Positions 8,288 through 64,000 of a stretch of 64,000 nucleotides of DNA are shown here, in pieces (the first letter of the stretch is position 1; each line of letters begins with the position of its first letter). Origin of the DNA: an uncultured Lachnospiraceae bacterium (GTDB taxonomy: Bacteria > Bacillota > Clostridia > Lachnospirales > Lachnospiraceae); assembly GCA_947384285.1 (NCBI GenBank), contig CANDGI010000003.1:79745-143744 (forward strand), written 5' to 3'. Position numbers and translations under genes: made by a program. Below the pieces are notes generated by a model that ran no database searches, was not told the DNA's origin, and worked only from the letters and a program-made list of their open reading frames with translations.

Positions 8288-8338
8288 CTATGCCATCCAT
8301 AGAAATCCCTCCTCTGTGGCTATGCCATCCATAGAAAT
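8288..8338. repeat. Direct repeat over the fthC stop codon
   Basis: The 19-base word CTATGCCATCCATAGAAAT occurs at 8288-8306 and 8320-8338, a period of 32 bases. Because 32 is not a multiple of three, the second copy is read in a different frame (SMDGIA versus FLWMA) and supplies the stop codon. Confidence 0.9.
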
Positions 8339-8842
8339 ATCATGCACTTCCGTTTCCAGTTCTTTCACAAGCTGAATGGCGTAAGCCGTTCCTATTTTCA
8401 TGTATTGGGGATGTCTGGCAAGATAGCGGTCATAATATCCGCCGCCGTAGCCAATCCTGTTCCCCTTAGCATCAAAGCCCAGGCCTGGCACAAATACCAG
8501 GGCATTTTGCCCTGCCAGCAGTTTTCCTCCTACAGGCTCCATAACATGAAAGCTCCCCTCCTGAAAGTCTTCCAGGGAAGCAATTTCATAAAATTCCATG
8601 TTTTTTCCTTCCACCCTTGGAAATGCCGCCTTTTTTCCTGCATCAAGCGCTTTCTGGGCCAGAGGCAGAAGATTTACTTCTTTTCCCAGGGGATAATAAA
8701 AACAGAGCGTTTCCGCTTGCAGAAATATGGTCTGCCTGCTTATTTTTTGGCAGATTTCTTCTGATAATTTCTGCGCCTGTTTACAGGTAAGGCTCTCCCT
8801 CTCCTGCTTTTGCCTGATCCTAATCTGCTTCTTTGTTTCCAT
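8288..8842 (-). CDS. fthC: 5-formyltetrahydrofolate cyclo-ligase
   Basis: A 184-residue enzyme that converts 5-formyl-THF to 5,10-methenyl-THF using ATP, recycling a folate dead end. The substrate loop RIGYGGGYYDRYLA near residue 135 and the basic N-terminus KKQIRIRQKQERE, which includes the ATP-binding lysine/arginine pair, are family hallmarks. The ATG at 8840-8842 gives the normal family N-terminus; an alternative in-frame ATG at 8872 would add ten residues. Either way it overlaps the end of the UPF0291 gene (stop at 8820). The C-terminus FLWMA comes from a short direct repeat that places a new stop codon, so the last residues differ from typical family ends. Confidence 0.93.
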   Translation of the reverse strand: METKKQIRIRQKQERESLTCKQAQKLSEEICQKISRQTIFLQAETLCFYYPLGKEVNLLPLAQKALDAGKKAAFPRVEGKNMEFYEIASLEDFQEGSFHVMEPVGGKLLAGQNALVFVPGLGFDAKGNRIGYGGGYYDRYLARHPQYMKIGTAYAIQLVKELETEVHDISMDGIATEEGFLWMA

Positions 8843-9041
8843 ATTTTTCACCCAGGTTTTCTGTGGTTCCATCTGGGTTTACCACGTCAATATTGTCAAG
8901 CTGCGCCCGAAGGTTTCTTCTGATATTTGCAATATACTCTTTCCGCAGAAGATCCTGTTCCTTCTTTTCGGCTTCTGTCAGCCCTTCGGCTTTTGATTTT
9001 CTGGCAAGTACATTGATTCTGTCTATTTTACTCTGTTCCAT
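8820..9041 (-). CDS. UPF0291/DUF896 family protein (YnzC-like)
   Basis: A 73-residue basic, helical protein of the UPF0291 family. The pattern KIDRINVLARKSKAEGLTEAEKKEQDLLRKEY is spread over residues 4-36 and is characteristic. GGAGG is five bases before the ATG at 9039-9041, so the slightly longer frame from a TTG is not needed. Bacillus YnzC belongs to the same family and its gene is SOS-associated there; the molecular function is unknown. The 3' end overlaps fthC by 23 bases, suggesting coupled translation. Confidence 0.9.
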   Translation of the reverse strand: MEQSKIDRINVLARKSKAEGLTEAEKKEQDLLRKEYIANIRRNLRAQLDNIDVVNPDGTTENLGEKYGNKEAD

Positions 9042-9284
9042 AATTTCCTCCAATCTTCTATATTGTGTGAATATTTTATGATTATTTTCCTTTCATAAAA
9101 ACATTTTGTTTCTATTTGCTAAATTTTATAAAAGAGACAATAAACTGCCTCCCCCATCTAATCACCTCTCAATTCATCTTTTAAATCTTTTGCCATCTAT
9201 AAACTGCAAATAGTCATCGCTCGTCCCAGAAAGTACTTAAATCAAAGAGAAGGTATATTTCAACCTTTTCATATCATGCAGCTC

Positions 9285-10145
9285 CTATTCCATGCTCTTC
9301 TCAATAAAATCCGCAATATAAAAGTCTTCATTCCGATGTTCCTTAAATAAAGTCCCTCGAAATTCCCCTTCGAAAATCTGATGGAGAATACCCACATCCT
9401 CTCCATTGGCAATCACCATATCTGCCCCGGAACAGGTGGCAATCATTGCCGCCGTCAGCTTCGTCGCCATCCCCCCGGTGCCCACATCGCTTCCCGTGGT
9501 TGCTTTTGCCATGGAAAGAATCCCTTCGTCCAGCTGCTCTACCACCGGAATCAGCTCTGCATCAGGATTCCTGTGGGGGTCATCCGTAAACAGGCCGTCA
9601 ATATCCGACAAAAGAATCAGCAAATCTGCTCCCACCAGAGAAGCCACCAACGCAGAAAGGGTGTCATTGTCCCCAAACTGCATCTCATAAGTGGAAATCG
9701 TGTCATTCTCATTGACAACCGGAATAATGCCCAGACGAAACAGCTCCTCAAAGGTATTCTGCGCATTTTTCCGGGAAACATTATCCTTCATGGTTCCCTT
9801 GGTCATAAGAATCTGGCCCGCTGTCTGGTGGTATTCCGAAAACAATTTCTGATAGGTCATCATCAGCCTTGCCTGCCCCACAGCCGCACATGCCTGCTTG
9901 GTGGAAATATGATCCGGCCGTTCCGTCAGTCCAATCACCTTCCGCCCTACGGCTATGGCGCCGGAGCTTACCAGACACACATCAATTCCCCGGTTTCGGA
10001 TATCGCAAAGCTCCCGCACCAAACGTTCCACTTTCCCAAGATTGAGCCTTCCTGTGGCTGCATGGTGCAAAGATGCCGAACCGATTTTCACAACCACTCT
10101 CTTTTTCTTTCCAAAATATTCTTTTGCTTCCATGATTTTCTCCAT
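9285..10145 (-). CDS. proB: Glutamate 5-kinase
   Basis: A 286-residue kinase for the first step of proline synthesis (glutamate to glutamyl-5-phosphate). Amino acid kinase motifs are present: VVVKIGSASL near the start, LVSSGAIAVG, and FGDNDTLSALVASLVGADLLI in nucleotide and glutamate binding. The protein ends after the kinase domain and lacks the C-terminal PUA domain of the roughly 370-residue E. coli enzyme, as in many Firmicutes. Two starts are possible, 10145 (AGGAG four bases away) and 10133 (GGAG six bases away). The partner proA is not next to it; downstream is a 240-base AT-rich gap with nothing recognisable. Confidence 0.94.
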   Translation of the reverse strand: MEKIMEAKEYFGKKKRVVVKIGSASLHHAATGRLNLGKVERLVRELCDIRNRGIDVCLVSSGAIAVGRKVIGLTERPDHISTKQACAAVGQARLMMTYQKLFSEYHQTAGQILMTKGTMKDNVSRKNAQNTFEELFRLGIIPVVNENDTISTYEMQFGDNDTLSALVASLVGADLLILLSDIDGLFTDDPHRNPDAELIPVVEQLDEGILSMAKATTGSDVGTGGMATKLTAAMIATCSGADMVIANGEDVGILHQIFEGEFRGTLFKEHRNEDFYIADFIEKSME

Positions 10146-10159
10146 TCATCTCCTGCACT

Positions 10160-11500
10160 TTATTGATTCTGCCACTCATCCGCCGTCTTTGCACTGGGGT
10201 AAATCTGATCCATCCGCTGGTCTGGAAATTCTGCGTCCACCCAGGACTCCATCTGATTTTTTGGCGGAATTCCCTGAGCCCGTTCCCCGCAGCGCACCAA
10301 AGCTGCTGTGGAGATGACGATATCCCACACCATAAACACCAGGAACATCCAAGTCAATGCCTTTCCCAGCTTTTTGGGTATTTTCTCAATCCAGCCAGAC
10401 ATCAAAGGATAGAGCCGCTTCATCCACACCCAGGCTGCAATTCCCCAGAAAAAACAATACAAAAGGTTGATGCGGCCGCCCAGATTAAAAGGAATATCAC
10501 TGTAATCCCAAAATACAGTTCCAAATGCCAATTCTGTAAATACACTGCAGATATATTCATAAGCTCCGCCTAGCAAGGTTCCTGCCGCAAATATATGGCT
10601 GTCCTCCTGATTCCGGTAACGGTAAAGTACAATCGTAGCTCCGGCAACGCCGATTCCCCATACCAGGCTGAAGGTTCCATAGACCAAGCTGCTTCTGCTC
10701 ATCCACCAGCCCATGGTAAAACGGCAGAAAACCATCTCCACCAACGCTCCTAAAAAAGATCCCAGGAAAAAAATCCAGACAATTTTGTGGAAGCTGCACC
10801 CATAGGCAAACACCGTTTTCTGGCGTATTAACTCCTGCTTTTCCTCCTCTGTTTCTGCCTTTTTCTTCTCCAAACCGGGAAATGCCCGGCTCATACGCCT
10901 GTCCACAAGGCCTACAATGGCCGCCTGCAAGGAATGGGAAGCCTGGTTCAGCCCTTGTGCAATCTCACACATGGCCTGGTTTTGGTTTTTGATTTTCAGC
11001 AGGGCTCCCACCGTCATAATAACATCCACCGCCAAAACCACGCAAAGCACTGCCAAGACAACCATGCCAGGCAGATATGGTATCTTTTCCAGCACTGCCA
11101 GCAGCATAGGATTGATGAATTTTATCACAAGAATTCCTAACGCGCCCCAAATCACAGCTGCCGTAAGGCAGATATAGCCGCCGGCCTGGAACCTTTTGCC
11201 AGAATAATCCCAAAGCCTGATATGGAATGTTTTTTCCATGATTAATCCTGTCAGTAGTTCCGTAACTGTGCCTACAATCATGCATCCCAAAAACAGGTAG
11301 AACCATTCTCCCCTCAAAGAATCCATAAAAATCAGCATGAATAGGGTGGAAATTCCGTATACCGGACAAAGCATCCCGTTTAAAAGCCCTCTGTTTACAA
11401 ATTTTCTCCGGCCGGCTGCCGCATAGACCACTTCCAGGCACCAGCCAAGGAAGCTGTAAAGAAAGAACAGGGATATTAATTCAAAACCTGTATCTATCAT
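10160..11500 (-). CDS. Duplicated ABC_trans_CmpB-type membrane protein (putative ABC transporter permease)
   Basis: A 446-residue membrane protein made of two related halves. The first half contains LFFLYSFLGWCLEVVYAA and GLLNGMLCPVYGISTL; the second repeats the pattern with WIFFLGSFLGALVEMVFCR and SSLVYGTFSLVWGIGV. Each half has about four or five membrane segments, with a charged cytoplasmic linker near residues 190-225. GAGGAAA six bases before the ATG at 11498-11500 decides the start. The family is annotated as putative ABC permease, but no ATPase gene lies nearby and no substrate is known. It lies 14 bases upstream of proB and is probably cotranscribed with it. Confidence 0.85.
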   Translation of the reverse strand: MIDTGFELISLFFLYSFLGWCLEVVYAAAGRRKFVNRGLLNGMLCPVYGISTLFMLIFMDSLRGEWFYLFLGCMIVGTVTELLTGLIMEKTFHIRLWDYSGKRFQAGGYICLTAAVIWGALGILVIKFINPMLLAVLEKIPYLPGMVVLAVLCVVLAVDVIMTVGALLKIKNQNQAMCEIAQGLNQASHSLQAAIVGLVDRRMSRAFPGLEKKKAETEEEKQELIRQKTVFAYGCSFHKIVWIFFLGSFLGALVEMVFCRFTMGWWMSRSSLVYGTFSLVWGIGVAGATIVLYRYRNQEDSHIFAAGTLLGGAYEYICSVFTELAFGTVFWDYSDIPFNLGGRINLLYCFFWGIAAWVWMKRLYPLMSGWIEKIPKKLGKALTWMFLVFMVWDIVISTAALVRCGERAQGIPPKNQMESWVDAEFPDQRMDQIYPSAKTADEWQNQ

Positions 11501-11567
11501 AAGCGTTTCCTCTTTCTGTATCATTAAAAATATGTTTCCTGTGTATCAAAATATGAAAGTTGCGTGT

Positions 11568-11637
11568 TAGGCGCTTACAAACAATTTCTTGCGCAAATTG
11601 GCAAAATTTTTGTCGTACGCCTTTCTGGTTTATCCAG
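11568..11637. repeat. Family D 70-bp dispersed repeat, copy 1
   Basis: A 70-base block from TAGGCGCTTAC to GGTTTATCCAG, with core ACAATTTCTTGCGCAAA. It matches 17984-18053 at about 85% identity in the same orientation. It ends two bases before the MATE stop codon. Confidence 0.85.
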
Positions 11638-11638
11638 G

Positions 11639-13039
11639 TTAGGAAGCTGTGTCGACAATGTTTTGCAGCCAGATTCCTTTTTTTACCAGGACATATCCTA
11701 GAATGCATTTCAGGGTTTCAATCAGCTGGCAGCTTAGATACACTAATACAATGGGCAGCGCTGTAAAGTTTGCCAGGACAAAGGCGAGGGGGATGTCTGC
11801 AATCCACACATATACGCTGTCAAATAGTACTGTAATCCAGGTTTTTCCGCCGGAGCGGAGGGTAAAATAGCACCCATGCATAAATGCATACAAAGGCATG
11901 CATCCGGCGGCTATCAGGATAAACCTTGCAGCCAGGGACTGCACCTCCCCGGAAGTGTTGTAAATCAAGGGGAAGAATGGTGAAATCAATGCCAGCAGGC
12001 TTCCAAACACCAGGCAGGTGGAAACGGTAAAAAACAATAGCTTCCGGTCCGTGTCCTTTGCTTCCTCCATTTTCCCTGCTCCTAATAACTGCCCTACGAT
12101 AATGGAAATAGCGCCTCCGGTAGAGATAAATACCACATTGAACAGATTTGACACCGTACTGGAAATATTCAGCGCTGCCACCACCGACAATCCCCGGACC
12201 GAATAGCATTGCAGCAAAAAGGCCTGTCCCGTGGACCATGCAATTTCGTTCAGCATGATAGGGATTCCCTTCTGGATAATATTGGCCGTCAATTCCCTGG
12301 GTATCTTAAGGCTTCGGAAGGCTCCTTGGATAAAAGGATGCTCCTGCCTGTGCCTGTAGGTCCAGCATATGAGCACGGCGCATTCCACCACCCTGGCAAT
12401 ATCTGTGGCAATGGCAGCCCCTACTGCTCCCAGAACCGGCAAACCGAATCTGCCGAAAATCAGCAGATAATTGCCGATAAGGTTAACAAAAACTGCAATA
12501 ATCCCCGCCTTCATGGGTAAAATGGTTTCCCCTGTCTCACGCAGGGTGCTTGCATAAGCCTGGGAAATGGCATAGGGCACGATGCCCAGTATCATCACCG
12601 CCAGGTATTCCTTTCCATATGCCAGGGTTTTTGCAATATCGCCGCTCTGGGCGCCCTCATGGAGGTACAGCATAATCAATTCCTCTCCTGCCGCCACAAA
12701 CAAGATGATTGCAGCCGCTGCCGTCAGCATGCAGACGATGAATTTAAAACGGAAGGTATTGCGCACGCCTTCCTGGCTTCCCTTTCCATAATACTGGGCA
12801 GTAAAAATCCCGGCGCTGGAAACGCCGCCGAAAATGCAGATATTAAATACCGTCATAAACTGGTTGACGATGGCGACGCCGCTCATCTGCTCCGTTCCCA
12901 CCTGCCCTACCATAATATTGTCCAAAAGGCTTACAAAATTGGTAATGCCGTTTTGGATAATAACAGGCACCACAATCATCAGAACCATCCGGTAAAATGC
13001 TTTATCTCCTATGTACTTCTTCCAAAAATTCTGTCCCAT
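11639..13039 (-). CDS. MATE family efflux transporter
   Basis: A 466-residue, 12-segment transporter of the MATE family, expected to export organic cations or drugs in exchange for Na+ or H+. The N-terminal half contains VPVIIQNGITNFVSLLDNIM and GQVGTEQMSGVAIVNQ, the usual first-helix signature. The second half repeats the fold (KGIPIMLNEIAWSTGQAF). The frame is open upstream to a GTG at 13093, but AGGAAGG six bases before the ATG at 13037-13039 gives the best start. The substrate is unknown. The stop codon abuts repeat family D. Confidence 0.93.
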   Translation of the reverse strand: MGQNFWKKYIGDKAFYRMVLMIVVPVIIQNGITNFVSLLDNIMVGQVGTEQMSGVAIVNQFMTVFNICIFGGVSSAGIFTAQYYGKGSQEGVRNTFRFKFIVCMLTAAAAIILFVAAGEELIMLYLHEGAQSGDIAKTLAYGKEYLAVMILGIVPYAISQAYASTLRETGETILPMKAGIIAVFVNLIGNYLLIFGRFGLPVLGAVGAAIATDIARVVECAVLICWTYRHRQEHPFIQGAFRSLKIPRELTANIIQKGIPIMLNEIAWSTGQAFLLQCYSVRGLSVVAALNISSTVSNLFNVVFISTGGAISIIVGQLLGAGKMEEAKDTDRKLLFFTVSTCLVFGSLLALISPFFPLIYNTSGEVQSLAARFILIAAGCMPLYAFMHGCYFTLRSGGKTWITVLFDSVYVWIADIPLAFVLANFTALPIVLVYLSCQLIETLKCILGYVLVKKGIWLQNIVDTAS

Positions 13040-13218
13040 ACCATTCCTTCCTGCTTGGCTCATATAGTCCAAACCAATCAACCATATGTTCACTTTCCTG
13101 AATTTCCATCTTTTTTACAGTATGATTGTAAGTCTAACACAAACAGCCGTTTGTGACAATATAATTATAAAAAAATGGCATAAATTTCCGTGGCCTGCAT
13201 CGGTGCATGACCAAGAAA

Positions 13219-13344
13219 TCAAGGCATTTCAATAATTCTTCCAAAAATAAGCGTCTGGAATCCCATTCCTGGAACTCCAGACGCTATATGCTTTCCGGCT
13301 TTTGCCGCTTCCTCAATGGTTGCAATAACCCCTTGTTTCTGCAT
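13219..13344 (-). pseudogene. Possible remnant of a GGGtGRT gene 3' end
   Basis: A 41-codon frame contains VIATIEEAAKAGKHIASG. Its TIEEAAKAGK resembles the C-terminus SIEEAAKAGKF of the GGGtGRT protein that ends 300 bases upstream in the direction of transcription, and the DNA is also similar over about 30 bases. The rest does not match. It is most simply a decayed partial copy. Only a weak ribosome binding site (GGAAACG) precedes the ATG, and a stop codon lies seven codons upstream. Confidence 0.35.
13250..13285 (-). terminator. Candidate terminator within the 13040-13644 gap
   Basis: AGCGTCTGGA (13250-13259) pairs with TCCAGACGCT (13276-13285); on the minus strand TTATTTTTGG follows. It could end transcripts coming from the GGGtGRT operon. 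Confidence 0.5.
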
Positions 13345-13370
13345 CGTTTCCAAGCCATTTGAGCGCTACG

Positions 13371-13413
13371 TGAGGGTTATTCGTGAGGGTTGTATGAGGG
13401 GCTCTTGAGGGTT
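13371..13413. repeat. Four TGAGGG(T/G) iterations
   Basis: TGAGGGTT starts at 13371, 13384 and 13406, with TGAGGGGC at 13395, giving spacings of 13, 11 and 11 bases, about one helical turn each. The gap 13040-13644 holds no convincing intact gene. Confidence 0.6.
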
Positions 13414-13565
13414 ACAGACTCAGCTTTATTTAATGCACGAATCTCTAAATCCCCAGAATCCGCACAAATCCAGGCTTTTTCATATTTCCTGTGGTTGGTG
13501 CGCAAGATATATCTCTATCGTTCCCGCCCATAGTGTTCACAGCAAAACATATTGATATTGTATAT

Positions 13566-18811: not shown

Positions 18812-18855
18812 TTGATTTTCCTCTTTTCTTTTACTATGAATCTAAGACTACAGCG

Positions 18856-18888
18856 TAACCTGCTAAGTAACCTGCTAAGTGACCTGCT
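18856..18888. repeat. 12-bp tandem repeat over the topB stop codon
   Basis: TAACCTGCTAAG occurs at 18856-18867 and 18868-18879, followed by the diverged TGACCTGCT at 18880-18888. On the minus strand each unit reads Gln-Val-Thr-stop, so the topB stop codon is itself repeated. Confidence 0.9.
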
Positions 18889-21145
18889 TTTTTTCTGGCG
18901 TTTTCCTGGATGCTTTGTCTTTTGCGGAGGGGGGCGAAGGTTTATTCGCCGATGGCTTCGAAGACTTATAATATGTGGAAGCATATTGGAAATGCCCTCG
19001 CAGTGCGTATTGGTTATTTAATCCTAGTACGCCGCTGGTGCGGCTCCTTACAAAATGCTCTAATTTATCCATGTATTCCTTGGGGGTAATGCTTCCTTCT
19101 GCTACATAGGTCAGCCCTTTTTCCCAGCTTGCAGTTAATTCAGGATTTAACAAGGAGCGGATGGATGCATTTACCACGTCGTATATCATTTCACCTAATA
19201 AAGTCGGTGTGATGGCCTGGGTTTTCTTGTTCAGGGCAAGGTATTTGTTATTGACCAGCTTTTTCAAAATTTCTGCCCTGGTGGCGCTGGTGCCAATTCC
19301 GCTTCCTTTGATTTGGGCGCGGAGTTCTTCATCCTCAATCAGCTGCCCGGCATTCTCCATGGCAAGTATCATGGAGCCGGAATTATAGCGTTTGGGAGGG
19401 GAGGTTTCCCCCTCCTTGATATTTAATGCTTCCACTGGAAGTTTCATTCCTTTTTTTAACCTGGAAAGAAGCTCCAGAAGCTTTCCGTCGCAGGAATTCT
19501 CTTCTGTTCCAGACTGTTCCTTCCCTTCTGGCTTTTCCCTGTCTTTCTTTTTCTGGAAGGAATACTCCATAACCTTAAGATAGCCCGGGTCTGCCAGAAC
19601 CTTGAATGCAAAAAAGAATTTTTCTTTCCTGGCAGAGCTTCCCTCCTTCTGCCCTTCCAAAGAAGCGTCCTTTTGGGGCTGTTCCCTAGAAACCGGCTCC
19701 ATAGCCGTGACCAGGCTGATTTTCTGGTAGACAGCCGGTGGAAAGAATATTCCAAGAAACCGTCGGACAATGGCTTCATAAACATTCAACGCCGTCCCAT
19801 TCAGGCTGCGGATGGCGGAAAAACCCTGGCCCGTAGGGATAATGGCATAATGGTCTGTAATCTGCTTATCATTCACATACCGGGTCTTTGCAATCTTTTT
19901 ATAACTTCCTGTTTCCAAAATCTCCTCGGAAAATTCCCGGACGGAAGGTATGTTCTTAAGGCCGCTGATATTCTTATGGATTTCCTTTGCTACCGCCGAC
20001 GACAGAACCCTGGCGTCCGTCCTGGGATAAGTCACCAGCTTTTTCTCATACAATTCCTGCACCACCTGCAAGGTCTCATCCGGGCTGATTTTAAAAAATC
20101 TGGAGCAGTCATTCTGAAGCTCTGCCAGATTGTACAATAAAGGAGGGTTCTTATTTTCTTTTTTCTTCTCTATAGAAAATACGGCTGCTTCTCCTTTGCC
20201 GGTTTCCAAAGCATCCCCTCCGGCAGTCCCCGTGGCCATCCTATTATGGATGTGGGAGACTTCCATAGCAGATTCCCCGGTTCCATGGCTTCCCTTCTTC
20301 GGATTGAAAATTAAATCTTTTATTAATCTTTCTGCATCTTCCCGGCTTTTGAAGCCATTTTCTTTATAGAGTTTGGGGGACTGGTAGTAGGCGGATCCTT
20401 CCACAGCCCTCCACTCTCCTTCGATGGAATTTCCCTGGATATCCACCGTGCTTACCACCCGGTAAAAAGGGGTTTTTACAAATTCCCGGATCTCCCGCTC
20501 CCGACGGACCACCATGCCCTGCACACAGGTCATGACCCGTCCTACGCTGACCACGGTATACTTGGTATTCAAAAAGCTTGAGATGGCATTCCCATATTTT
20601 AAGGTAAGCAGGCGAGAAAAATTAATGCCCATTAAATAATCTTCTTTTGCCCGTAAATAGGCGGATTCACAGAGATTATCATATTCTGACAAATCCTTGG
20701 CTTCCCGGATTCCCCTTAAGATTTCCTCCTCTGTCTGAGAATCAATCCACACCCTCCGGCGGTTTTTCCCCCTGACCTTTGCCTGGCGTTCCACCAGCCG
20801 GTAGATATACTCCCCTTCCCTTCCAGAGTCCGTACATACATAAATGGTATCCACATCTGTCCGGTTCAACAATCCTGCCACGATCTCATACTGCTTTTTC
20901 ACGCCTGGGATTACCTCATACTTGAAATCCTCCGGGAGAAACGGAAGGGTGGCAAGGCTCCATTTCTTATATTTTTCATCATAGGCTTCCGGGTAACTCA
21001 TGGTGACCAGATGCCCTACACACCAGGTAACTATGGCTTCCCCTGATTCCATATAGCCGTCATGATTTTTTAATTCCAGTTTTAATGCTTTGGCAAATTC
21101 CCGTGCTACACTGGGTTTTTCTGCTATATATAAAGCTTTCGCCAT
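18875..21145 (-). CDS. topB: DNA topoisomerase III-type type IA topoisomerase
   Basis: A 756-residue type IA topoisomerase. The N-terminal MAKALYIAEKPSVARE begins the Toprim domain. Its acidic loop is VCTDSGREGEYIYR (residues 103-116), where most enzymes read DxDREGE. The catalytic tyrosine is Y373 in LVTYPRTDARV. Low-complexity polar insertions lie at about residues 283-335 and 505-560, making it longer than E. coli TopB. The Lys/Ser-rich C-terminus has no zinc fingers. AGGATG precedes the ATG. The start and the stop codon each lie in a tandem repeat. It follows the ATPase gene by 137 bases. Decatenation and plasmid or transposon maintenance are family roles. Confidence 0.94.
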   Translation of the reverse strand: MAKALYIAEKPSVAREFAKALKLELKNHDGYMESGEAIVTWCVGHLVTMSYPEAYDEKYKKWSLATLPFLPEDFKYEVIPGVKKQYEIVAGLLNRTDVDTIYVCTDSGREGEYIYRLVERQAKVRGKNRRRVWIDSQTEEEILRGIREAKDLSEYDNLCESAYLRAKEDYLMGINFSRLLTLKYGNAISSFLNTKYTVVSVGRVMTCVQGMVVRREREIREFVKTPFYRVVSTVDIQGNSIEGEWRAVEGSAYYQSPKLYKENGFKSREDAERLIKDLIFNPKKGSHGTGESAMEVSHIHNRMATGTAGGDALETGKGEAAVFSIEKKKENKNPPLLYNLAELQNDCSRFFKISPDETLQVVQELYEKKLVTYPRTDARVLSSAVAKEIHKNISGLKNIPSVREFSEEILETGSYKKIAKTRYVNDKQITDHYAIIPTGQGFSAIRSLNGTALNVYEAIVRRFLGIFFPPAVYQKISLVTAMEPVSREQPQKDASLEGQKEGSSARKEKFFFAFKVLADPGYLKVMEYSFQKKKDREKPEGKEQSGTEENSCDGKLLELLSRLKKGMKLPVEALNIKEGETSPPKRYNSGSMILAMENAGQLIEDEELRAQIKGSGIGTSATRAEILKKLVNNKYLALNKKTQAITPTLLGEMIYDVVNASIRSLLNPELTASWEKGLTYVAEGSITPKEYMDKLEHFVRSRTSGVLGLNNQYALRGHFQYASTYYKSSKPSANKPSPPSAKDKASRKTPEKKQVT

Positions 21146-21287
21146 AAATCTACATCCTGCCTTCTATTATAAAGCTTTCACCATAAACTTGCATCCTGTT
21201 TCTATTATGAAAGCTTTCATAATAAATTTGCATCCTGTTTCTATTATGAAAGCCTTCATCATAAATTCATTCTGCTTTCTATCTATT
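21132..21287. repeat. 39-bp tandem repeat built from the topB translation start
   Basis: The word AAAGCTTTC (last copy AAAGCCTTC) starts at 21132, 21171, 21210 and 21249, an exact 39-base period over four units. The first unit is the genuine topB start. Each extra unit repeats the ribosome binding site and ATG-xxx-AAA-GCT. Joined, the upstream units make a 31-codon frame (21167-21262, minus) with the internal repeat MKAFIIETGCKF, ending 18 bases before the topB ATG. Confidence 0.92.
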
Positions 21288-36214: not shown

Positions 36215-36313
36215 CTGCATTTTTCCGCTGCCTGCCATCCAGAGGGCAGGAAATATTTCCAGATTATACGCTGATTTCTGCATTTTTCCGCTGTCTGCCA
36301 TCCGGCGGACTGG
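36215..36313 (-). repeat. Repeated leader segment of the his operon
   Basis: CTGCATTTTTCCGCTG plus (C/T)CTGCCATCC occurs at 36215 and 36278 (period 63, one mismatch in 25). Each copy leads into a hairpin, CCTGCC/GGCAGG and TGCCA/TGGCA. No T-box or known riboswitch core is seen. The leader is about 160 bases long. Confidence 0.7.
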
Positions 36314-36366
36314 CATGATTTGGGCATATCTGGTACTTTAGTATGCTACTATATTAAAACATTCCC

Positions 36367-37010: not shown

Positions 37011-38063
37011 CTACGGGGATTGTGTAAGCTGCCCTTGGCATTTTCCCAGATGCCGGACCACCCTTTGGAATGTGCCGTTCAACGGCGCATGCAGCACCCT
37101 GCCGTCTGGGAATTCTATCCTGGAAGCATGCAGCAGCTGGGCGTGTACGCCAAGCTCCCTGGAAAACCATGCGTTTACCTGCTTGTTTCCATATTTCGCA
37201 TCTCCAACAACGGGATAGCCTATCGCTGCTAAATGAGCACGTATCTGGTGGGAACGCCCGGTAACCAGGCGAACCTTAAGCAAGGTAAAGCCCCCTTGCT
37301 GCCCTGCCTTAAAATGCTCAATGGGAACGTATTCTGTTTCAATATACTTACCGGCTTCCATAGCAGGGATGTCCATGCGGCTCACCAAACGGCAGCCTGT
37401 GCATGATGGATGTTTATCCGGCATTTCCTGGTCTGCCACAGTTACCCGGTTATGTTCCTCGTCCTTCCTAAGCCAGGCTTTCATCCGTTTGGGTTCTGAT
37501 ACCTTGCCTTTTACCAGGCAGCAATAATATTTCTTCACAGAACGGTTTTTTAACTGCTCCGCCATTTCCTGCAGGCCTTTCAGGCTTTTCCCTGCAATCA
37601 AAAGCCCTGATGTATTCCGGTCCAGCCGGTTGCACACCGAAGGCCGGAAGGTGCGAAGCTGGGATTCTGTAATTTTATTCTGCTTCAACAGGTAGCCAAT
37701 CATATATTCGTTGGCGGAAATATCTCCTGAATCCGCCTTTTGAGAAAGCATGCCCGCCGGTTTATTTATAACAAGAATGTCTTCGTCCTCATAAATAATA
37801 TCCAGGCGGGCATAGGGATATTTCTGGGAAGCCTGCACCGGGGCGCCCGCAAATTTTGCAAAGGTCTCCTCTGAAAAAAACAGCTTCACTTCATCCCCCT
37901 GCTTCAATTTTTCAGATCCATCCGCCTTTTTTCCATTCAATGTAATATTTTTCTTCCGAAGCATTTTGTAGATAAAGCTTCCTGGCGCCTTTTCCAGCAG
38001 CTTTTTCAAATATTTGTCAAAACGCTGTCCCATTTCATTGTTTCCGATTTGAAAGCTTTGCAT
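37011..38063 (-). CDS. RluA-family pseudouridine synthase with S4 domain
   Basis: A 350-residue RluA-type pseudouridine synthase acting on rRNA. Residues 12-75 form an S4 RNA-binding domain (RFDKYLKKLLEKAPGSFIYK). The catalytic motif is VCNRLDRNTSGLLI, with the catalytic Asp; Asn replaces the more common His, as in some Firmicutes subfamilies. The end contains LVTGRSHQIRAHLA. GGAGG upstream of ATG is strong. The first 29 bases overlap the end of the YgiQ gene. The target uridine is unknown. Confidence 0.92.
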   Translation of the reverse strand: MQSFQIGNNEMGQRFDKYLKKLLEKAPGSFIYKMLRKKNITLNGKKADGSEKLKQGDEVKLFFSEETFAKFAGAPVQASQKYPYARLDIIYEDEDILVINKPAGMLSQKADSGDISANEYMIGYLLKQNKITESQLRTFRPSVCNRLDRNTSGLLIAGKSLKGLQEMAEQLKNRSVKKYYCCLVKGKVSEPKRMKAWLRKDEEHNRVTVADQEMPDKHPSCTGCRLVSRMDIPAMEAGKYIETEYVPIEHFKAGQQGGFTLLKVRLVTGRSHQIRAHLAAIGYPVVGDAKYGNKQVNAWFSRELGVHAQLLHASRIEFPDGRVLHAPLNGTFQRVVRHLGKCQGQLTQSP

Positions 38064-39893: not shown

Positions 39894-40586
39894 TCATGCC
39901 GATCCTGCCATTTGACAGGCCCTGCCATCCTCATTCTTGAAATCGAAAACTTCATAATAATCTGTAATATAGTAATCTGCCAGCTCCTGCTTCTCTTGCC
40001 GCTGGGCAGATGAAAATTCATCTTCCACTGCACATACCTTCATGCCCGCATTTTTCCCTGCCAGGATTCCCATTGGGACATCTTCAAACACCAGGCAGTG
40101 GCAAGGCTGTGCCTTCAGGCGGCTGGCTGCCTGAAGATAAACATCCGGCGCGGGTTTTCCCCTCTTTACCTCACAGGCTGTCACAATTTCCTGAATGTAA
40201 TCTTCAAAGTGAAGGGACTTTGCCACTGCATCCACCAGCTCCCTGGAATTGCTGGTGGCAATGCCTATGGAGATATTCTGGTGTTTACAATATTTTAAAA
40301 ATTCTTCTGCGCCTGGTTTGAAATTTACCTCATATGTATATTTTTCAACTGCCATCCGGTTCCAGATTTCTTTTAATTCCTCTACGCTCTCGGAAAGATG
40401 GAATAATTTTTTCGTATACACCGCAGTTTCTGTAAAGCTCATCCCCTCAATATCCCTCTGGTAGGTTTCTGGCAATGCCAATCCTCTCTGCTCCAGGAAT
40501 TCCACATCGATATCGTGCCACAGCCACATGGAATCCACCAGCGTTCCGTCTAAGTCAAAAATTACGGATTGTATCTCTTTTAACAT
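39894..40586 (-). CDS. HAD-superfamily phosphatase/phosphoglucomutase-like
   Basis: A 230-residue HAD enzyme with all four motifs: DLDGTLVDS (catalytic Asp pair), ATSNS, the lysine in KRGKPAPDVY and FEDVPMG. The cap (residues 18-85) is helical, as in beta-phosphoglucomutase and small sugar phosphatases. Specificity is not readable. The acidic and polar tail (FDFKNEDGRACQMAG) is longer than usual. It lies between degV and ygiQ, with a hairpin upstream. Confidence 0.88.
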   Translation of the reverse strand: MLKEIQSVIFDLDGTLVDSMWLWHDIDVEFLEQRGLALPETYQRDIEGMSFTETAVYTKKLFHLSESVEELKEIWNRMAVEKYTYEVNFKPGAEEFLKYCKHQNISIGIATSNSRELVDAVAKSLHFEDYIQEIVTACEVKRGKPAPDVYLQAASRLKAQPCHCLVFEDVPMGILAGKNAGMKVCAVEDEFSSAQRQEKQELADYYITDYYEVFDFKNEDGRACQMAGSA

Positions 40587-41566: not shown

Positions 41567-41610
41567 CGCTTCCTCCTTAATTTTCAAGCATCCTGCACTT
41601 GCTGCTTTTA

Positions 41611-41716
41611 TCCTTAGTGCATAGTTTTTTATCTCTTATCCTTTATAACACCATTGTTCGCAAAATGAGCGATAATTTTTCTCCTTAGTGCATAGTTTTT
41701 TATCTCTTATCCTTTT
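41611..41716. repeat. 71-bp-period direct repeat between rsuA-like gene and degV
   Basis: TCCTTAGTGCATAGTTTTTT, followed by ATCTCTTATCCTTT, occurs at 41611-41644 and again from 41682, a period of 71. On the minus strand the copies read as purine-rich AAGGAT/AAGGAG pieces upstream of degV. Confidence 0.9.
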
Positions 41717-43387: not shown

Positions 43388-43418
43388 CTGTGTATCGAAT
43401 ATGCATTGTCCGCTGTAT

Positions 43419-43536
43419 GCTAGTTGGAGCGTTTTAGGAATTCTAGAAGTAATTTCCTTACTTTTCTCCTGTGTATCGAAATATGCTATGCTAGTTGGAG
43501 CGTTTTAGGAATTCTAGAAGCAATTTCCATACTTTT
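43419..43536. repeat. Duplicated 3' end of pepD
   Basis: GCTAGTTGGAGCGTTTTAGG, followed by AATTCTAGAAG, occurs at 43419 and 43490, period 71, about 47 bases with two or three mismatches. The second copy encodes the last codons of pepD; the first is downstream and non-coding. CTGTGTATCGAA is duplicated as well, at 43389 and 43469. Confidence 0.9.
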
Positions 43537-47078: not shown

Positions 47079-47633
47079 CTATTTCGTAAACCGAAAGAAT
47101 ACATGTTTATTTGTTTTATAGGCCTTTTCCCTTGTAATGGTAAATCCCAATTCCTCTGCATAAAGGAAATCTGTAGAAAGAGACGCCTCCGCTACAACCA
47201 AGGAATCCTCTGCCAGCAAGGATGATTCTGATAATGCTTTCAGCACTTCCTGTTCCAGCCCTTTTCCATAAGGAGGATCCATAAATACGATATCAAAAGG
47301 CTCCATTCCTCCCATCCGTCTTATGGCCAAGACGGCATCCTGCACAAAAAGCGTGCAGGAATCGGTAAATTTTGTAAACTGTATATTTGCCTCAATGCAG
47401 GCTGCCGCTTTTTTGCTGTTTTCCACAAATACGGCAGCCTTTGCGCCCCGGCTGACCGCCTCCAGCCCAATCTGCCCGCTTCCAGCAAACAAATCCAAGA
47501 ACCTGCAGCCTGGTATTTCAGGATGCAGTATATTAAAAAGCGTCTCCTTAATCCGGTCTGTGGTGGGCCTGCTTTCCATGCCAGGCGCTGTCTTTAATGG
47601 AAGGCTTCTGGCGCTTCCCGCTATAATCCTCAT
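47079..47633 (-). CDS. rsmD: 16S rRNA (guanine(966)-N2)-methyltransferase
   Basis: A 184-residue Rossmann methyltransferase. The SAM loop is [17 protein letters not shown] and the catalytic motif is [17 protein letters not shown] is the ribosome binding site. The sequence from the preceding cinA stop to this ATG is repeated in 42-bp units. Confidence 0.95.
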
Positions 47634-47748
47634 CCTTTCACCTCATCTAAAATTATCTTTCCTGATAATCTTCATCCCTTCGTCTCTTCTAAAATTATCT
47701 TTCCTGATAATCCTCATCCCTTCGTCTCTTCTAAAATTATCTTCCGCA
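47623..47748. repeat. 42-bp tandem repeat joining the cinA end and rsmD start
   Basis: TCTAAAATTATC units begin at 47646, 47688 and 47730, an exact 42-base period. Each unit carries the end of cinA (GAAGAGACGAAGGGATGA on the minus strand) followed by ATGAGGATTAT, the rsmD start. The middle copies form a 24-codon frame (47643-47717) overlapping the cinA stop. Confidence 0.92.
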
Positions 47749-50928: not shown

Positions 50929-51264
50929 TCAGATTTCAGTATCTTCCTTCAAGTCCTCTTGTGTAGTTTCTTCCGAAATTTCTTCTGAAATCTCTTCCAA
51001 AATTTCCTCTGAAATTTCTTCTGGAGCCTCTTCTTCTCCTACGATTTTCACCTTGCTGCTGTACAATTCTTCCACTGCAATGGAAAAAGGCTTTTTATTC
51101 GAGGTATTATCAATCAAAGGCTCCTCGCCTCCAATAATCTGCCTTGCCCTTTTTGCCGTTGCAAGCACAATAGAGTACCGGCTGTTTACCACCGGCTCCT
51201 CGCCAATTTCCACATCGCTGTTTACCACCTTCATTAAATCTGTATAAGACGGATGAAGCATCAT
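50929..51264 (-). CDS. rpoZ: RNA polymerase omega subunit with acidic repeat tail
   Basis: A 111-residue omega subunit. The core (residues 1-75) has HPSYTDLMKVVNS, NSRYSIVLATAKRARQI and KPFSIAVEELYSSKV. The remaining residues form a Glu-rich tail of EEIS-like units (EEISEEILEEISEEISEETT) encoded by a 12-base repeat, so the C-terminus is much more acidic than in most relatives. AAGGAG ten bases before the ATG gives the start at 51264 or 51261. Follows gmk. Confidence 0.92.
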   Translation of the reverse strand: MMLHPSYTDLMKVVNSDVEIGEEPVVNSRYSIVLATAKRARQIIGGEEPLIDNTSNKKPFSIAVEELYSSKVKIVGEEEAPEEISEEILEEISEEISEETTQEDLKEDTEI

Positions 51265-58708: not shown

Positions 58709-58710
58709 TT

Positions 58711-58752
58711 AAAAAACACCTCCCCCTGCTATACTGTTTTTCAGAGGGGAGG
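58711..58752 (-). terminator. Rho-independent terminator of the XRE regulator gene
   Basis: On the minus strand CCTCCCCTCTG (58742-58752) pairs with CAGGGGGAGG (58719-58728) and is followed by TGTTTTTT. Stem of about ten GC-rich pairs, 43 bases after the stop codon. Confidence 0.85.
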
Positions 58753-58794
58753 AGTTCTAAACGAGGACATGAAAACTCAACGGGACATCCCTTG

Positions 58795-59721
58795 CTATAC
58801 CAATATGCCATAGTGTTTCCCGGCATATGTTTTCACTTTTTCAGCATGTTCTTGCTGATTGACTGCCTGAAATACGGCAATGGTCTGTATAAAAATCTTT
58901 TCAGACATATCATAATGCCCTAACTCTGCCAACACACAGGCTTTATTGCAAAGAAGCATGGGAAATGTATGCAGCTTGCCATACTTGATACAATACTCAA
59001 TCCCTGTCTGGCAGAGGGAAAGCGCGTCTTTATACATTCCCTCCTGTCCAAGCCAGGAAGATAAATTCTGCAGAATCTTAGGATATTTCAGAAACATTTC
59101 GTCACTGCCTGGAATATGTGCTTCCATATATTCTTTTAGCCCAAAAAGCAATTGTATCCCATCCATCACCCTTCCAAGCTTATGGTACGTGCAGCCAATA
59201 TGATTCAAAATCACAATCTCGTGATAGGTCAGAAGCCTGGCCTTGATATGGATTCCGTCAAAATCCGGCATCGTCATATGTATGGTATGCAACAGCTCCT
59301 CTAAGACCCACTCTGCCCCTCTTCCTTTCTTCTCCTGAATTAATATCTCTGCAAAGGCCAAATACTGCTCTTCCATCTTCCCAAAGGATGCCCTGCCGGA
59401 ATTTCTTTTCCTTTTCTTTTCCATACATCCGGCAAAATACTCTGCCTGCTCAAAATCCCCGTCCCCCAGGCTTTTGGCCAATTGCTGCTCCAGCTGATAC
59501 CGCTCCCGTTCCTCCTGGTTGAGATATACATGGTAAATCCTGTCAACCGCTCCCAAGCGCTGCAGCAGCCCTTCCAGTATCTTTTTTCCTGGAACCTGCA
59601 AACCGTTTTCAATTCTGGATAAGGTAGAAACTGCACAAATCCCATAGCTTAATTCCTCCTGGGAATATTTCTGCCGCTCCCTTGCATCCCTAATCAACTC
59701 TCCAATGGTATAATACGCCAT
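58795..59721 (-). CDS. XRE-family HTH regulator with TPR-like helical domain
   Basis: A 308-residue regulator. Residues 5-65 are an XRE helix-turn-helix (IGELIRDARERQKYSQEELS, then STLSRIENGLQVPG). The remainder is all-helical with TPR-like repeats (NHIGCTYHKLGRVMDGIQLL, SSWLGQEGMYKDALSLCQ, CNKACVLAELGHYDMSEKIF). This layout resembles RRNPP regulators (PlcR, Rgg, AimR kin), which bind short peptides. A small coding frame with a ribosome binding site lies downstream, but no signal peptide is visible in it. Peptide sensing is inference. Confidence 0.85.
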   Translation of the reverse strand: MAYYTIGELIRDARERQKYSQEELSYGICAVSTLSRIENGLQVPGKKILEGLLQRLGAVDRIYHVYLNQEERERYQLEQQLAKSLGDGDFEQAEYFAGCMEKKRKRNSGRASFGKMEEQYLAFAEILIQEKKGRGAEWVLEELLHTIHMTMPDFDGIHIKARLLTYHEIVILNHIGCTYHKLGRVMDGIQLLFGLKEYMEAHIPGSDEMFLKYPKILQNLSSWLGQEGMYKDALSLCQTGIEYCIKYGKLHTFPMLLCNKACVLAELGHYDMSEKIFIQTIAVFQAVNQQEHAEKVKTYAGKHYGILV

Positions 59722-59809
59722 GGCATGATATACTCCTTTCCTCCATCTTAGGAATTATCATACCCAGTCTGCTTCCCTTTGTCAATGAGGGCCGGATTTT
59801 TTACAGATT

Positions 59810-61063
59810 TCATATATTGTTATCTTTCTCTATATATTCCAGTTCCAGCTCCTCTGCCAAATGCTCGCCACTCATACAATGCAGGCCAGAAACACCCTCA
59901 TCCAGGCAAATCACAAAAGATTTCCTGTAAATCCCTTCCGGTACCTGCTCCAGGCGAAGGCTGCCGCCATGCATGGCAATCACTTTATGTGCAATGCTCA
60001 ACCCCAGACCGCTGCCGCCTTTACTCCTGCGGGATTCGTCTCCTGATACAAAAGGATCAAAAATATATTTCGCCGTTTCCTCCGGTATTGCTTCCCCGTT
60101 ATCGCAGACCCGGATGGTTACTCTGCCATCCTCCTGCTCTCCCTTTATCAAAACCTTTGTTCCCGGTTTATTGTGCCGGATTGCATTGTTTAATAGGTTA
60201 GAAACTACCCGCTGGAACTGCAGCCTGTCTATCTGCATCCACAGTTCTCCTTCTGGAATCTCCGGCAGAACCTCCATTTCCTTCCTTTCAAAATCCATAT
60301 ACAGGCTGGCAGCGCTTTCCCTCAATAACTCCCAAATATTCTCCCTGGTCTTTTTCAGCTGATATCCTTCACTGTCCAGTTTCACATATTCAAACAAAAG
60401 ATTGATAAGCCCGCTCATCTGCATGGTTTTATTATATATTGTTTCCAGATATTCCTGTCCTGGGATATCCTTATTTTCTAACAATGCCCTTGCATAGCCA
60501 GCTACTGTGGTCATAGGCGTCTTTAAGTCATGAGCCACATCAGACAAAAGAAGGTTCCTCCTCCTATCGTATTCTTCCCGCTGTTTCAACTCCTGCTCTT
60601 CCAGCTGCCGCACATGCGCCTCTACCATCTGGCCAAACACAAGGGCGGCAATCACATAGGGAAGTATCATTGTGACCACGATGAGAAGCGTTAGGACAGC
60701 CGTCCCCATCAGGTAAATCTGCGTTTCCCGCTGGGACATTCGGCTGGTCTGCGCCGAAATGTAATCTGTGAACCTGCTCCCCGCAAACTTCTCTGCCAGC
60801 CCCTGCAGCCCAATTCCTGCAATATAGGGAAATCGGCTGCTGACTCCCCACACTGCCAGATAAACCATGCTGCGGAACAAAAGCCCTAATGTCTGCTCGC
60901 TTTCCCATTCCGCCATAAAAAAATTGATATGGAATACCTGTTCCAGCCAGGGATAGAATACGGCACGGTAAAAAATATTCAGCAGGCTCTCGCTTAGTGA
61001 TACCAATACCAGGATTAGCAAAAACCTGCGGATAACAAACCATTTCCACGTTGTGTGTTTCAT
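59810..61063 (-). CDS. Sensor histidine kinase
   Basis: A 417-residue kinase. Two membrane segments (FLLILVLVSLSESLLNIFY and VLTLLIVVTMILPYVIAALV) flank an extracytoplasmic domain of about 90 residues. The H-box is SDVAHDLKTPMTTVAGYAR, the N-box RVVSNLLNNAIRHNKPG and the G-boxes GLGLSIAHKV. All are intact. It follows the response regulator by three bases. Confidence 0.94.
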   Translation of the reverse strand: MKHTTWKWFVIRRFLLILVLVSLSESLLNIFYRAVFYPWLEQVFHINFFMAEWESEQTLGLLFRSMVYLAVWGVSSRFPYIAGIGLQGLAEKFAGSRFTDYISAQTSRMSQRETQIYLMGTAVLTLLIVVTMILPYVIAALVFGQMVEAHVRQLEEQELKQREEYDRRRNLLLSDVAHDLKTPMTTVAGYARALLENKDIPGQEYLETIYNKTMQMSGLINLLFEYVKLDSEGYQLKKTRENIWELLRESAASLYMDFERKEMEVLPEIPEGELWMQIDRLQFQRVVSNLLNNAIRHNKPGTKVLIKGEQEDGRVTIRVCDNGEAIPEETAKYIFDPFVSGDESRRSKGGSGLGLSIAHKVIAMHGGSLRLEQVPEGIYRKSFVICLDEGVSGLHCMSGEHLAEELELEYIEKDNNI

Positions 61064-61066
61064 CTC

Positions 61067-61750
61067 TTATCTCTCCATGCGGTAACCAAGGCCCCGTATG
61101 GTTTTGATATAAGCGCTGTTGTCCTCAGACAATTTCGCCCTCAGGCGGCTGATGCATACCATAATATTATTGTCTGCAATGGCGTATTCCTCACCCCACA
61201 CGTTTTCATAGACCTGCTGTTTTGTATATACTCTTCCCGGATTTTCCATAAAGAGCCTTAGAAGCTTGTATTCCACGGAGGTTAGATCAATGGGCTGCCC
61301 TCCCTTATAGACCAGGCAGGATTCCGTGTCAAGGCACAAGTCCTTAACTTTAAGCTGCTTTAGCTCCTGGCTTTTTGCGCCCAGGGAATAAAATCTTCGG
61401 ATATTCGAATTAATTCTTGCCATCGCCTCCATAGGATTAAAAGGCTTTGCCAGATAATCATCCGCGCCAAGATCCAGCCCCAGGATTTTGTCAGCGTCCT
61501 GATTTTTCGCAGAAAGTATCATCACCGGTATATTACTGCCCTCCCGTATCTTTTTCAAAACCTTATAGCCATCCGCCTTTGGCATCATAATGTCCAAAAG
61601 AGCCATGTCAACCTCTTCCTGTTCCAGGATAGAGAGAGCTTCACACCCATCCTCCGCCTCCAGGACATGGTATCCATCTTTCTCCAGATACAGGCACAAA
61701 AGCTCCCGGATTTCCTTTTCATCATCTGCAATCAAAATTGTATATGCCAT
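61067..61750 (-). CDS. OmpR-type response regulator
   Basis: A 227-residue regulator. The receiver has DDEKE, phospho-acceptor Asp in MALLDIMMPKADGYKVL (about D52) and Lys in ILSAKNQD. The C-terminal winged helix contains DLTSVEYKLLRLFMENPGRV and RGLGYRME. GGAGAGAGG precedes ATG. With the kinase it forms one signalling pair; target genes are unknown. Confidence 0.95.
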   Translation of the reverse strand: MAYTILIADDEKEIRELLCLYLEKDGYHVLEAEDGCEALSILEQEEVDMALLDIMMPKADGYKVLKKIREGSNIPVMILSAKNQDADKILGLDLGADDYLAKPFNPMEAMARINSNIRRFYSLGAKSQELKQLKVKDLCLDTESCLVYKGGQPIDLTSVEYKLLRLFMENPGRVYTKQQVYENVWGEEYAIADNNIMVCISRLRAKLSEDNSAYIKTIRGLGYRMER

Positions 61751-61851
61751 GAGCCCTCTCTCCTTTTTTCAATGAAATGCCCCTTTCCTCTGGCGGCAAA
61801 TCGTCAGAAGCCATTTCAAATAATGCTTCACATCAGCCTTCCTCCTGGCTT

Positions 61852-62616
61852 TTAAAAACCAGGCGTTTTTTGTAAATGCTGCTCCTTCAGCGTCTGATAA
61901 AGCGCAGCATCTGTCTGGCTCACATATGGGTTTAAGTAAAAAATACCAAGTATCCCTAATGTCAGCCCGTTTAAAATATACCATCCAAAAAAAGACAAGT
62001 TTAAGACAAAGGCTCTCCACTTATTTCCATACATCATAGCTTTGCTTAAGGCCAGCGCTTCCTCTGTTCCCATTTCAGGATGTTCCCCTAAAATATAAGG
62101 CACCAGCATATATTCATAGCTTTTCACAATCCCTGGAACCACCAAAAGCAACGTCCATAAGAAAATGTAAAGCCTTTGGAAAAACATTGCTTTCACGCAA
62201 TTCTTATAGCCATGGTCAAAGGCAAAGCAAAGCTCCTTAACCTGGGCCTGTTCGGTCATATTTTTGGTAAAAAACCGGGAAATTCCCACCTCCAATGGCT
62301 GGAATACCAGGATTTTCATAGGCAGCACCACCAAAAGCAAAACCAGAAACACAACAGCTATAATAATAATCACCACCATCAGGAACACAAGCACCCCATC
62401 TTCAATGATTATATCAGGAAGCTCATAATCCTCTTCCCTCCCACTTTCTTCCGTTGTATCTGAATTCAATGCTTCCCAGGTAAACTTAGCCCCGCCGCCA
62501 AAGGCTCCTCCGCCGCCGCACAACAGCATAAGCGTCAATGCTGCCAAGACAGCCTTCCAGCGGTTCATGCGGACCCGCTGTTTGGCAGCCTCCTTCAATT
62601 CTTTTCTTGACCACAT
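61852..62616 (-). CDS. DUF975 family membrane protein
   Basis: A 254-residue membrane protein with five or six hydrophobic segments. The N-terminal SRKELKEAAKQRVRMNRWKA and the later ALSKAMMYGNKWRAFVLNLSF and YLNPYVSQTDAALYQ are DUF975 hallmarks. AAGGAGG seven bases before the ATG at 62614-62616 sets the start. An acidic, Ser/Thr-rich loop (residues 45-72) faces outside or inside. Function unknown; it is upstream of the response regulator and may be in its operon. Confidence 0.85.
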   Translation of the reverse strand: MWSRKELKEAAKQRVRMNRWKAVLAALTLMLLCGGGGAFGGGAKFTWEALNSDTTEESGREEDYELPDIIIEDGVLVFLMVVIIIIAVVFLVLLLVVLPMKILVFQPLEVGISRFFTKNMTEQAQVKELCFAFDHGYKNCVKAMFFQRLYIFLWTLLLVVPGIVKSYEYMLVPYILGEHPEMGTEEALALSKAMMYGNKWRAFVLNLSFFGWYILNGLTLGILGIFYLNPYVSQTDAALYQTLKEQHLQKTPGF

Positions 62617-62788
62617 CCTATGTCCTCCTTCCTCATCTTTCCCTTTGATACATTGTATCATATGCCAGCATCCTTAACAGAAAAATTCCTTTTTCTTACA
62701 ATAACCTTACAAAACACCTTGCTTGTTTCGCCAGCTGGCATTATTAATTAGGAAACCATTGCAGAACCTGGAGTTCTTTTTATGAGGA

Positions 62789-63808
62789 TCAAGAAAGTGG
62801 ATTTGCAGTCTCAAATATTAAATCATAATTTATTTTCTTATAAAACATCTGTTCCAGTGAATCTTCCCTGGATTCCTGGCTGCCAAGTATCCACATGGTT
62901 TTGGCAATCACCGCTTCCAGCGTCATGTCGTAGGATTCTAAAAATCTGCACTCTTTCTTAATCTTATTCCCTACCTCATAGACGGTCATATCGCTGCCCT
63001 CATGCGCCACCTGGGTCGCAAGGACAATGATTTTTTCTGGATAAGCCTCCCGGAGCTCATAAAAAATGTCGGAAACAGAAGCCGGAATTCCGCCTACCCC
63101 AAAGCTTTCCACAATAATCCCATCGTACTGCTCAAATAAAAACCGCAGGCCCTTGGGGGAAATTCCCGGAATCAGCTTCAACAGGAATATGTTATCATTC
63201 ATTTCTTCATAAAAGGTAACCGGCTCCTTGTAAGGCGCAGCAGGAATATACCGCATAATCCGCATGTCCTGGATCATGGCAAGAAACGGAAAATCTATGC
63301 TGTCAAAGGCATTGTAGCTCTTGGAGCGGATTTTCTTTGCCCGGGTGCCTGCAATTACTTTTCCCCCAAACACAATCATAACCCCCTGGGATTTCTCATC
63401 CGCAGCATAGCAGAAGCTGTCCAAAAGATTGGTTTTCGCATCTGTGATTTCCAGGTCAATGGACTTTTGTGCTCCGGTAATCACGATGGGCTTTGGGGAA
63501 TTCTGCACCATGTAGGACAAAGCCGCTGCCGTATAAGCCATGGTATCCGTCCCATGGGCAATGACAAATCCATCATACTCCTCATAATTCTCCCGGATGG
63601 CCCGCACCATCATCTTCCAGTGCTTTGGCTCCATATTGGTGCTGTCAATATTACAAAGCTGCACGGCAGAAGGATTGCAGATTTGATACACATCTGGAAT
63701 ATGCGATAGGATTTCTTCTGCGCGAATCAGAGGCGCAAGCCCATGCACTGATTTTTGGGATGCAATCGTCCCTCCAGTAGCAATCAGTAAAATTTTCTTT
63801 TTCATCAT
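62789..63808 (-). CDS. ansA: L-asparaginase, type I-like
   Basis: A 339-residue asparaginase. The first catalytic threonine is in LIATGGTIASQ, the second in VIAHGTDTMAYTAAAL. No signal peptide, so cytosolic. AAAGGG eight bases before the ATG at 63806-63808 sets the start; an ATG at 63841 exists but is preceded by repeats of ATGATAAAAG. It converts asparagine to aspartate and ammonia. Confidence 0.94.
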   Translation of the reverse strand: MMKKKILLIATGGTIASQKSVHGLAPLIRAEEILSHIPDVYQICNPSAVQLCNIDSTNMEPKHWKMMVRAIRENYEEYDGFVIAHGTDTMAYTAAALSYMVQNSPKPIVITGAQKSIDLEITDAKTNLLDSFCYAADEKSQGVMIVFGGKVIAGTRAKKIRSKSYNAFDSIDFPFLAMIQDMRIMRYIPAAPYKEPVTFYEEMNDNIFLLKLIPGISPKGLRFLFEQYDGIIVESFGVGGIPASVSDIFYELREAYPEKIIVLATQVAHEGSDMTVYEVGNKIKKECRFLESYDMTLEAVIAKTMWILGSQESREDSLEQMFYKKINYDLIFETANPLS

Positions 63809-63870
63809 GTGATACGCCCTTTCCACTTTTCTTTTTATCATCTTTTATCATCTCTTTTATCATCATAGTA

Positions 63871-64000
63871 CCCCCCATCATGCTCAGCCTGCCGTCCGGC
63901 GGGCCGCATGGCCATCCATGCTGTGAAAGCTTCAGCTTTCATTGCACCCCCCATCATGCTCAGCCTGCCGTCCGGCGGGCCGCATGGCCATCCATGCTGT
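63871..64000. repeat. 54-bp perfect direct repeat with 76-bp period, at the window end
   Basis: A 54-base block beginning CCCCCCATCATGCTCAGCC occurs at 63871-63924 and 63947-64000. Between them is a small hairpin, GAAAGCTTCAGCTTTC. It carries a CTGCCGTCCGGCGGGC word similar to the his leader's CTGCCATCCGGCGGAC. More copies may follow beyond the window. Confidence 0.9.

Follow-up and report, generated by a model that had tools for sequence, protein, structure and literature searches.

The window, by which we mean the whole 64,000-nucleotide stretch that was analyzed, lies within contig C3 of a draft genome of 3.23 Mb, which comprises 74 contigs and is 83% complete. Judged by pepD, the closest named relatives belong to the Lachnospiraceae. 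The gene names given in the original prediction are mostly upheld (cyclo-ligase, topoisomerase III-like, HisZ, DegV, RsuA-like, PepD-like dipeptidase, RsmD, CinA, RpoZ, and asparaginase), with TopB and some other window proteins scoring below curated cut-offs; a recU-like gene precedes hisZ. A search of the window for tRNA genes returned none, and the sole Rfam match is a minus-strand GA-cis RNA (RF02987) at 61769 to 61849 (38.2 bits, where the gathering score is 34.7), which is unrelated to the repeats. The repeats themselves are as follows:

8288..8338 (-): local duplication at the end of fthC (5-formyltetrahydrofolate cyclo-ligase), over the stop codon; period 32, with 19 nt matching exactly
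18855..18888 (-): local tandem repeat with a 12-bp unit, at the topB stop
21124..21282 (-): 39-bp tandem array of about four units at the topB start, repeating the ribosome-binding site and first codons of topB itself
36215..36321 (-): 63-bp repeat, either in the hisZ leader or in an N-terminal extension; homology begins at a later ATG
41606..41715 (-): local repeat in the gap between the rsuA-like and degV-like genes; 39 nt, 97% identity, period 71
43416..43536 (-): local duplication at the pepD 3' end, spanning the stop; 50 nt, 96% identity, period 71
47623..47743 (-): three 42-bp units at the cinA-rsmD junction, comprising the cinA end, a Shine-Dalgarno-like stretch, and the rsmD ATG
50957..51034 (-): 12/24-bp in-frame repeat in rpoZ, encoding the acidic tail of RpoZ
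63863..64000 (+): two units of a dispersed element with two hairpins, located upstream of the asparaginase gene; period 76, unit 2 cut by the contig end

All eight repeats named in the original prediction are present with the periods it gave and are above chance; at a score of 18 the window yields nine clusters, and eight dinucleotide shuffles of it yield none. Repeat copies within the window are 82 to 97% identical, and several of the local repeats are direct repeats with a nonmatching spacer, the match being shorter than the period. The description of each repeat as a copy of its local boundary holds, as judged by sequence, for the topB start, the cinA-rsmD junction, the pepD and fthC ends, and the topB stop, but not for the 76-bp unit; the rsuA-degV repeat lies in the gap, and the hisZ repeat in the leader. 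The units had also been described as unrelated in sequence, and this fails for the 76-bp unit upstream of the asparaginase gene, which has 47 BLAST matches in its own genome (the window's own included) and at least 93 with a covariance model. None of the local units recurs elsewhere in the 460.8 kb of the genome that was searched, save for one 39-nt match and matches inside one repeat-rich gene. Seven of the eight named repeats, together with that in rpoZ, are local minisatellite-like tandem duplications with periods of 12 to 71 bp.

The sequence searched beyond the window amounts to 396.8 kb of the same genome, of which contigs C1 and C2 (280 kb) were chosen blind to repeats, save for being long contigs, and the remaining contigs were picked for carrying the 76-bp element; gene calls come from our own simple codon-usage caller, and one genome (G037, mostly masked N) was left out of the comparisons. 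The original prediction held that repeats fall at starts or stops rather than inside genes, and as a genome-wide rule this does not survive: in C1 and C2, 25 of 36 clusters lie inside genes, compared with 25.8 under uniform placement. These 25 clusters fall in 15 distinct genes and, because several share one gene, they are not independent counts. Among the 11 clusters outside genes, five reach a gene edge, where a share of 0.55 would be expected. Placement relative to gene edges outside the window thus reveals no boundary enrichment in C1 and C2, and the suggestion that translation initiation regions are targeted by some process finds no footing in these same figures. The window itself behaves differently, with two of seven clusters inside genes against 5.6 expected (P = 0.004), although the window is what prompted the finding. 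The hisZ-leader cluster, counted here as in-gene, probably reflects a miscalled start, and moving it outside would sharpen the window bias.

Across the host genome and 12 relatives, every one of the 68 periods found inside genes is divisible by three, compared with 12 of the 31 outside genes; one later in-gene call, in G047, has a period of 17 and lies near a called start. The proposal that slippage is tolerated only between genes comes close: repeats of any length are kept there, but genes also retain them if the period is divisible by three. The uniform in-gene share and the multiples-of-three periods inside genes together point to undirected duplication filtered by frame. Against this, a plain one-third frame filter combined with uniform placement would put 16.6 clusters inside genes in C1 and C2, significantly fewer than the 25 seen (P = 0.004). 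One called gene of 3195 nt (C2, ~70.5 to 72.5 kb; L117) contains six separate tandem arrays, every one with a period that is a multiple of three. Two further ideas about the local duplications were dropped. Hairpin-driven duplication gains no support from mean folding z-scores of -0.27 outside genes and -0.12 inside, and an apparent upper period limit of 84 bp (460.8 kb, lags to 199) gave way to periods of 243 in C2 and C1 when lags to 299 were allowed; such a limit could also be caused by the draft assembly.

Comparison with relatives indicates how the individual junctions vary. The rsuA-degV and hisZ-leader repeats are each missing in all four aligned relatives, and the pepD-end repeat is missing in two of four (L001 and L003), the other two (L002 and L016) having by eye what are apparently older copies of the same tail. 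At cinA-rsmD, four of eight aligned relatives lack the insert and three have other inserts, and the cinA end of L006 (Petralouisia muris, an isolate genome) has a 71-bp duplication of its own. Both cinA-rsmD breakpoints lie, by eye, in similar short sequences, which fits slippage in this one case. At the topB start, one of 13 relatives (L289) has its own array, with a 42-bp unit 11 nt from the start; at the topB end, among 14 topB loci, L289 has a 110-bp repeat and L292 a 33-bp array. A 17-kb locus from a further relative (L020) carries four tandem arrays of 31 to 38 bp, each across the stop codon of a conserved gene; several of the units in these arrays are GGAA-rich. Because the topB ends and the cinA-rsmD junction have been duplicated independently in several species, these permissive hot spots are real. 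We read core-gene ends as sites where duplications survive, and there may still be a mild boundary preference.

The repeat upstream of the asparaginase gene belongs to an element that is dispersed and palindromic, with hairpins backed by covariation. Each unit is ~77 bp with two hairpins, the first of which has an inner and an outer stem, as defined by an alignment of 34 units; seven of 41 distinct units were excluded from it (six because a neighbour from the same array was already included, and one because of a deletion), and matches scoring under 25 were excluded from the unit tally. In this alignment 93.5% of cells are paired, and double-sided changes occur in 18 cells, compared with 5.8 ± 2.2 in shuffles and two to seven in slid versions. 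Five pairs have a double change, but 29 of the 500 shuffles and two of the six slid versions have as many, and unconstrained RNAalifold picked hairpin 2 together with a smaller alternative to hairpin 1. Element arrays mostly begin near AGTAAACYC and finish at CATAGTAA. With regard to MITEs, which have terminal inverted repeats and target-site duplications, both ends of the arrays carry AGTAA in the same orientation, and a possible target-site duplication is present at one array (L083), with none evident by eye elsewhere. Units are more alike within arrays than between them, both in the host genome (92.4% identity over 18 pairs within, 81.9% over 360 pairs between) and in G047 (95.8% and 90.7%). 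The contig and the window both end inside unit 2 of the asparaginase-upstream pair (63953 to 64000), and contigs C13, C22, and C47 also begin in the element.

The element has proliferated in certain species within the genus. In addition to the host genome, the covariance model finds at least 156 matches in G047, at least 58 in G022, and 12 in G015, high counts that may be underestimates given that 150 candidates were scored per genome; eleven further genomes have up to seven matches each, and 14 of the 29 genomes of the genus have none. Spread driven by a REP-associated (RAYT) transposase was considered and rejected: the Y1_Tnp search gave a fragment below the cut-off in the host genome (83% complete) and nothing in G022, which has 58 copies, although G047 does have Y1_Tnp matches.

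Copies of the element are also found in genes of the window, two of them internal and one at a gene end:

20207..20270 (+): element copy inside topB, antisense to the gene; nhmmer score 39.3
37351..37407 (-): truncated element copy in an RluA-family pseudouridine synthase gene; nhmmer score 51.9
39894..39959 (+): weaker element copy at the 3' end of a HAD-family phosphatase gene; nhmmer score 26.6

The topB copy sits in an in-frame insertion of ~35 residues that 11 of 13 orthologues do not have, and in the RluA-family gene the element forms part of a 22-residue in-frame insertion missing in all six relatives, such that a palindromic repeat lies in frame in both of these protein genes. The C-terminus of the HAD-family phosphatase is variable among relatives. 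The TopB loop (18875 to 21145, residues ~280 to 318) is variable in the genus, and the loci L279 and L280 carry different insertions there.

Several known systems bear comparison with one or the other type of repeat. Mycobacterial MIRUs constitute one dispersed family of short tandem units that lie at gene junctions and carry stop and start signals. The cinA-rsmD units are similar in being short, in tandem, at a gene junction, and in carrying such signals; however, the local units here are mutually unrelated and essentially single-copy in 460.8 kb, rather than a single family at many junctions. They are closer to bacterial minisatellites and VNTRs, being adjacent copies of local sequence. A satellite survey describes unique satellites in some bacteria, with in-gene periods that are multiples of three (PMC6749651), and the local repeats are likewise head-to-tail local copies, unique to their sites, with in-gene periods in multiples of three. 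They differ from minisatellites and VNTRs in being denser than in the sampled relatives, and many are two-copy and diverged. Short segments that vary within species are also on record, with 35 to 55% of microdiversity loci in genes and the frame undisturbed (PMC2884548).

The 76-bp element recalls REPs and BIMEs in being dispersed, palindromic, often in tandem, and mostly intergenic; REPs, too, are described inside coding regions (PMC3733652). It has a longer unit and two hairpins, its host group lies outside the phyla named in the text consulted (PMC3733652), and, unlike REPs accompanied by RAYTs, it occurs without a full Y1 transposase in two of its three richest hosts. The Rickettsia palindromic elements (RPEs), as reviewed elsewhere (PMC2229807), likewise occur both in intergenic DNA and as in-frame insertions in conserved genes. 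They are likened here by description, and they differ in length (105 to 146 bp, compared with ~77 bp), in the tandem arrays formed by the element, and in an unrelated host. Of the species surveyed, the available part of the satellite survey gives dispersed families of noncoding long repeats only for Leptospira interrogans and Methanocella conradii (PMC6749651). These resemble the element as genome-wide noncoding tandem repeats with units over 30 nt; also compared by description, the element occurs in another host, with hairpin covariation and in-gene copies. Overall, the genome is rich in minisatellites and carries an REP/RPE-like element, of which no description was found in the literature searched.

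We think it likely that the repeats of the window mix two unrelated things, local minisatellite-like duplication filtered by reading frame and a dispersed two-hairpin element. Local duplications would arise irrespective of where genes lie, with slipped or misaligned replication as the most likely route, and would persist where no gene is broken: whatever their length if they fall between genes or over stops, starts, and leaders, but inside genes only in multiples of three, as is observed. Gene ends may look favoured in the window because a duplication there would leave one intact end copy, and because its core genes would rarely tolerate internal repeats. The 76-bp repeat is a copy of the dispersed element, which forms tandems and also enters genes in frame. 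A boundary-duplicating system is then replaced by a testable account, in which tandem duplication passes through a reading-frame filter. As to the element, a more far-reaching reading, which we offer tentatively and hold to be somewhat less probable than its opposite, is that it may be a mobile satellite not described before: a 77-bp element with two hairpins that would have spread throughout the genome in three of the 29 species sampled, form arrays after landing, and enter core genes in frame, for which RAYT would be dispensable, and which resides in genomes where core-gene ends are recurrently duplicated. It would add to the two species with dispersed noncoding long-repeat satellites in the available part of the survey (PMC6749651), and could supply core proteins such as TopB with new segments.

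A dedicated process that duplicates translation start and stop regions, with copy number tuning expression, would explain the window bias described above and the recurrence of arrays in other species at topB ends, the cinA end, and the L020 stops. Nonetheless, we regard it as very unlikely, given the unbiased placement in C1 and C2 both inside genes and at gene edges, the plentiful in-frame repeats inside genes, and the absence of any common sequence among the local units. That the repeats are artefacts of a draft assembly is exceedingly improbable; although the draft is in 74 contigs and the element stands at the start or end of several of these, the window's included, the copies are not identical, they keep the reading frame inside genes, and the same type of repeat is present in the isolate genome of P. 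muris.

Loss of a repair or exonuclease function in this lineage, with tandem duplications building up faster than in relatives, is a further alternative that we consider unlikely. It draws on the density of repeats in the host genome, which has 43 clusters in 344 kb compared with 56 in 1200 kb in 12 relatives, and 16 compared with 15 outside genes, and on the lack of an SbcD match above the family cut-off in the host genome (G000), where gene absences are weak evidence because the genome is 83% complete. However, mutS1 has a match above the cut-off in the host, as in 37 of 41 genomes, and recJ is matched in nine of nine genomes, eight of them above the cut-off. SbcD, moreover, is above the cut-off in the repeat-rich G016, G022, G042, and G043 but not in the repeat-poor G003 and G021. 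The repair-gene searches thus leave loss of MutS, RecJ, or SbcD unsupported as the cause. Among the same-genus genomes searched, SbcD falls below the family cut-off in G000, G003, G013, and G021, and above it in the others. Repeat density forms a continuous range, with 9 clusters per 100 kb in G016 and G022 and six clusters in 31 kb in the genome that contains L020, and it varies within genomes, G014 having zero clusters in one 100-kb stretch and 4.9 per 100 kb in another. An Escherichia coli K-12 control gave five clusters in 100 kb with periods of 101 to 182, and two of these five are tandem tRNA genes.
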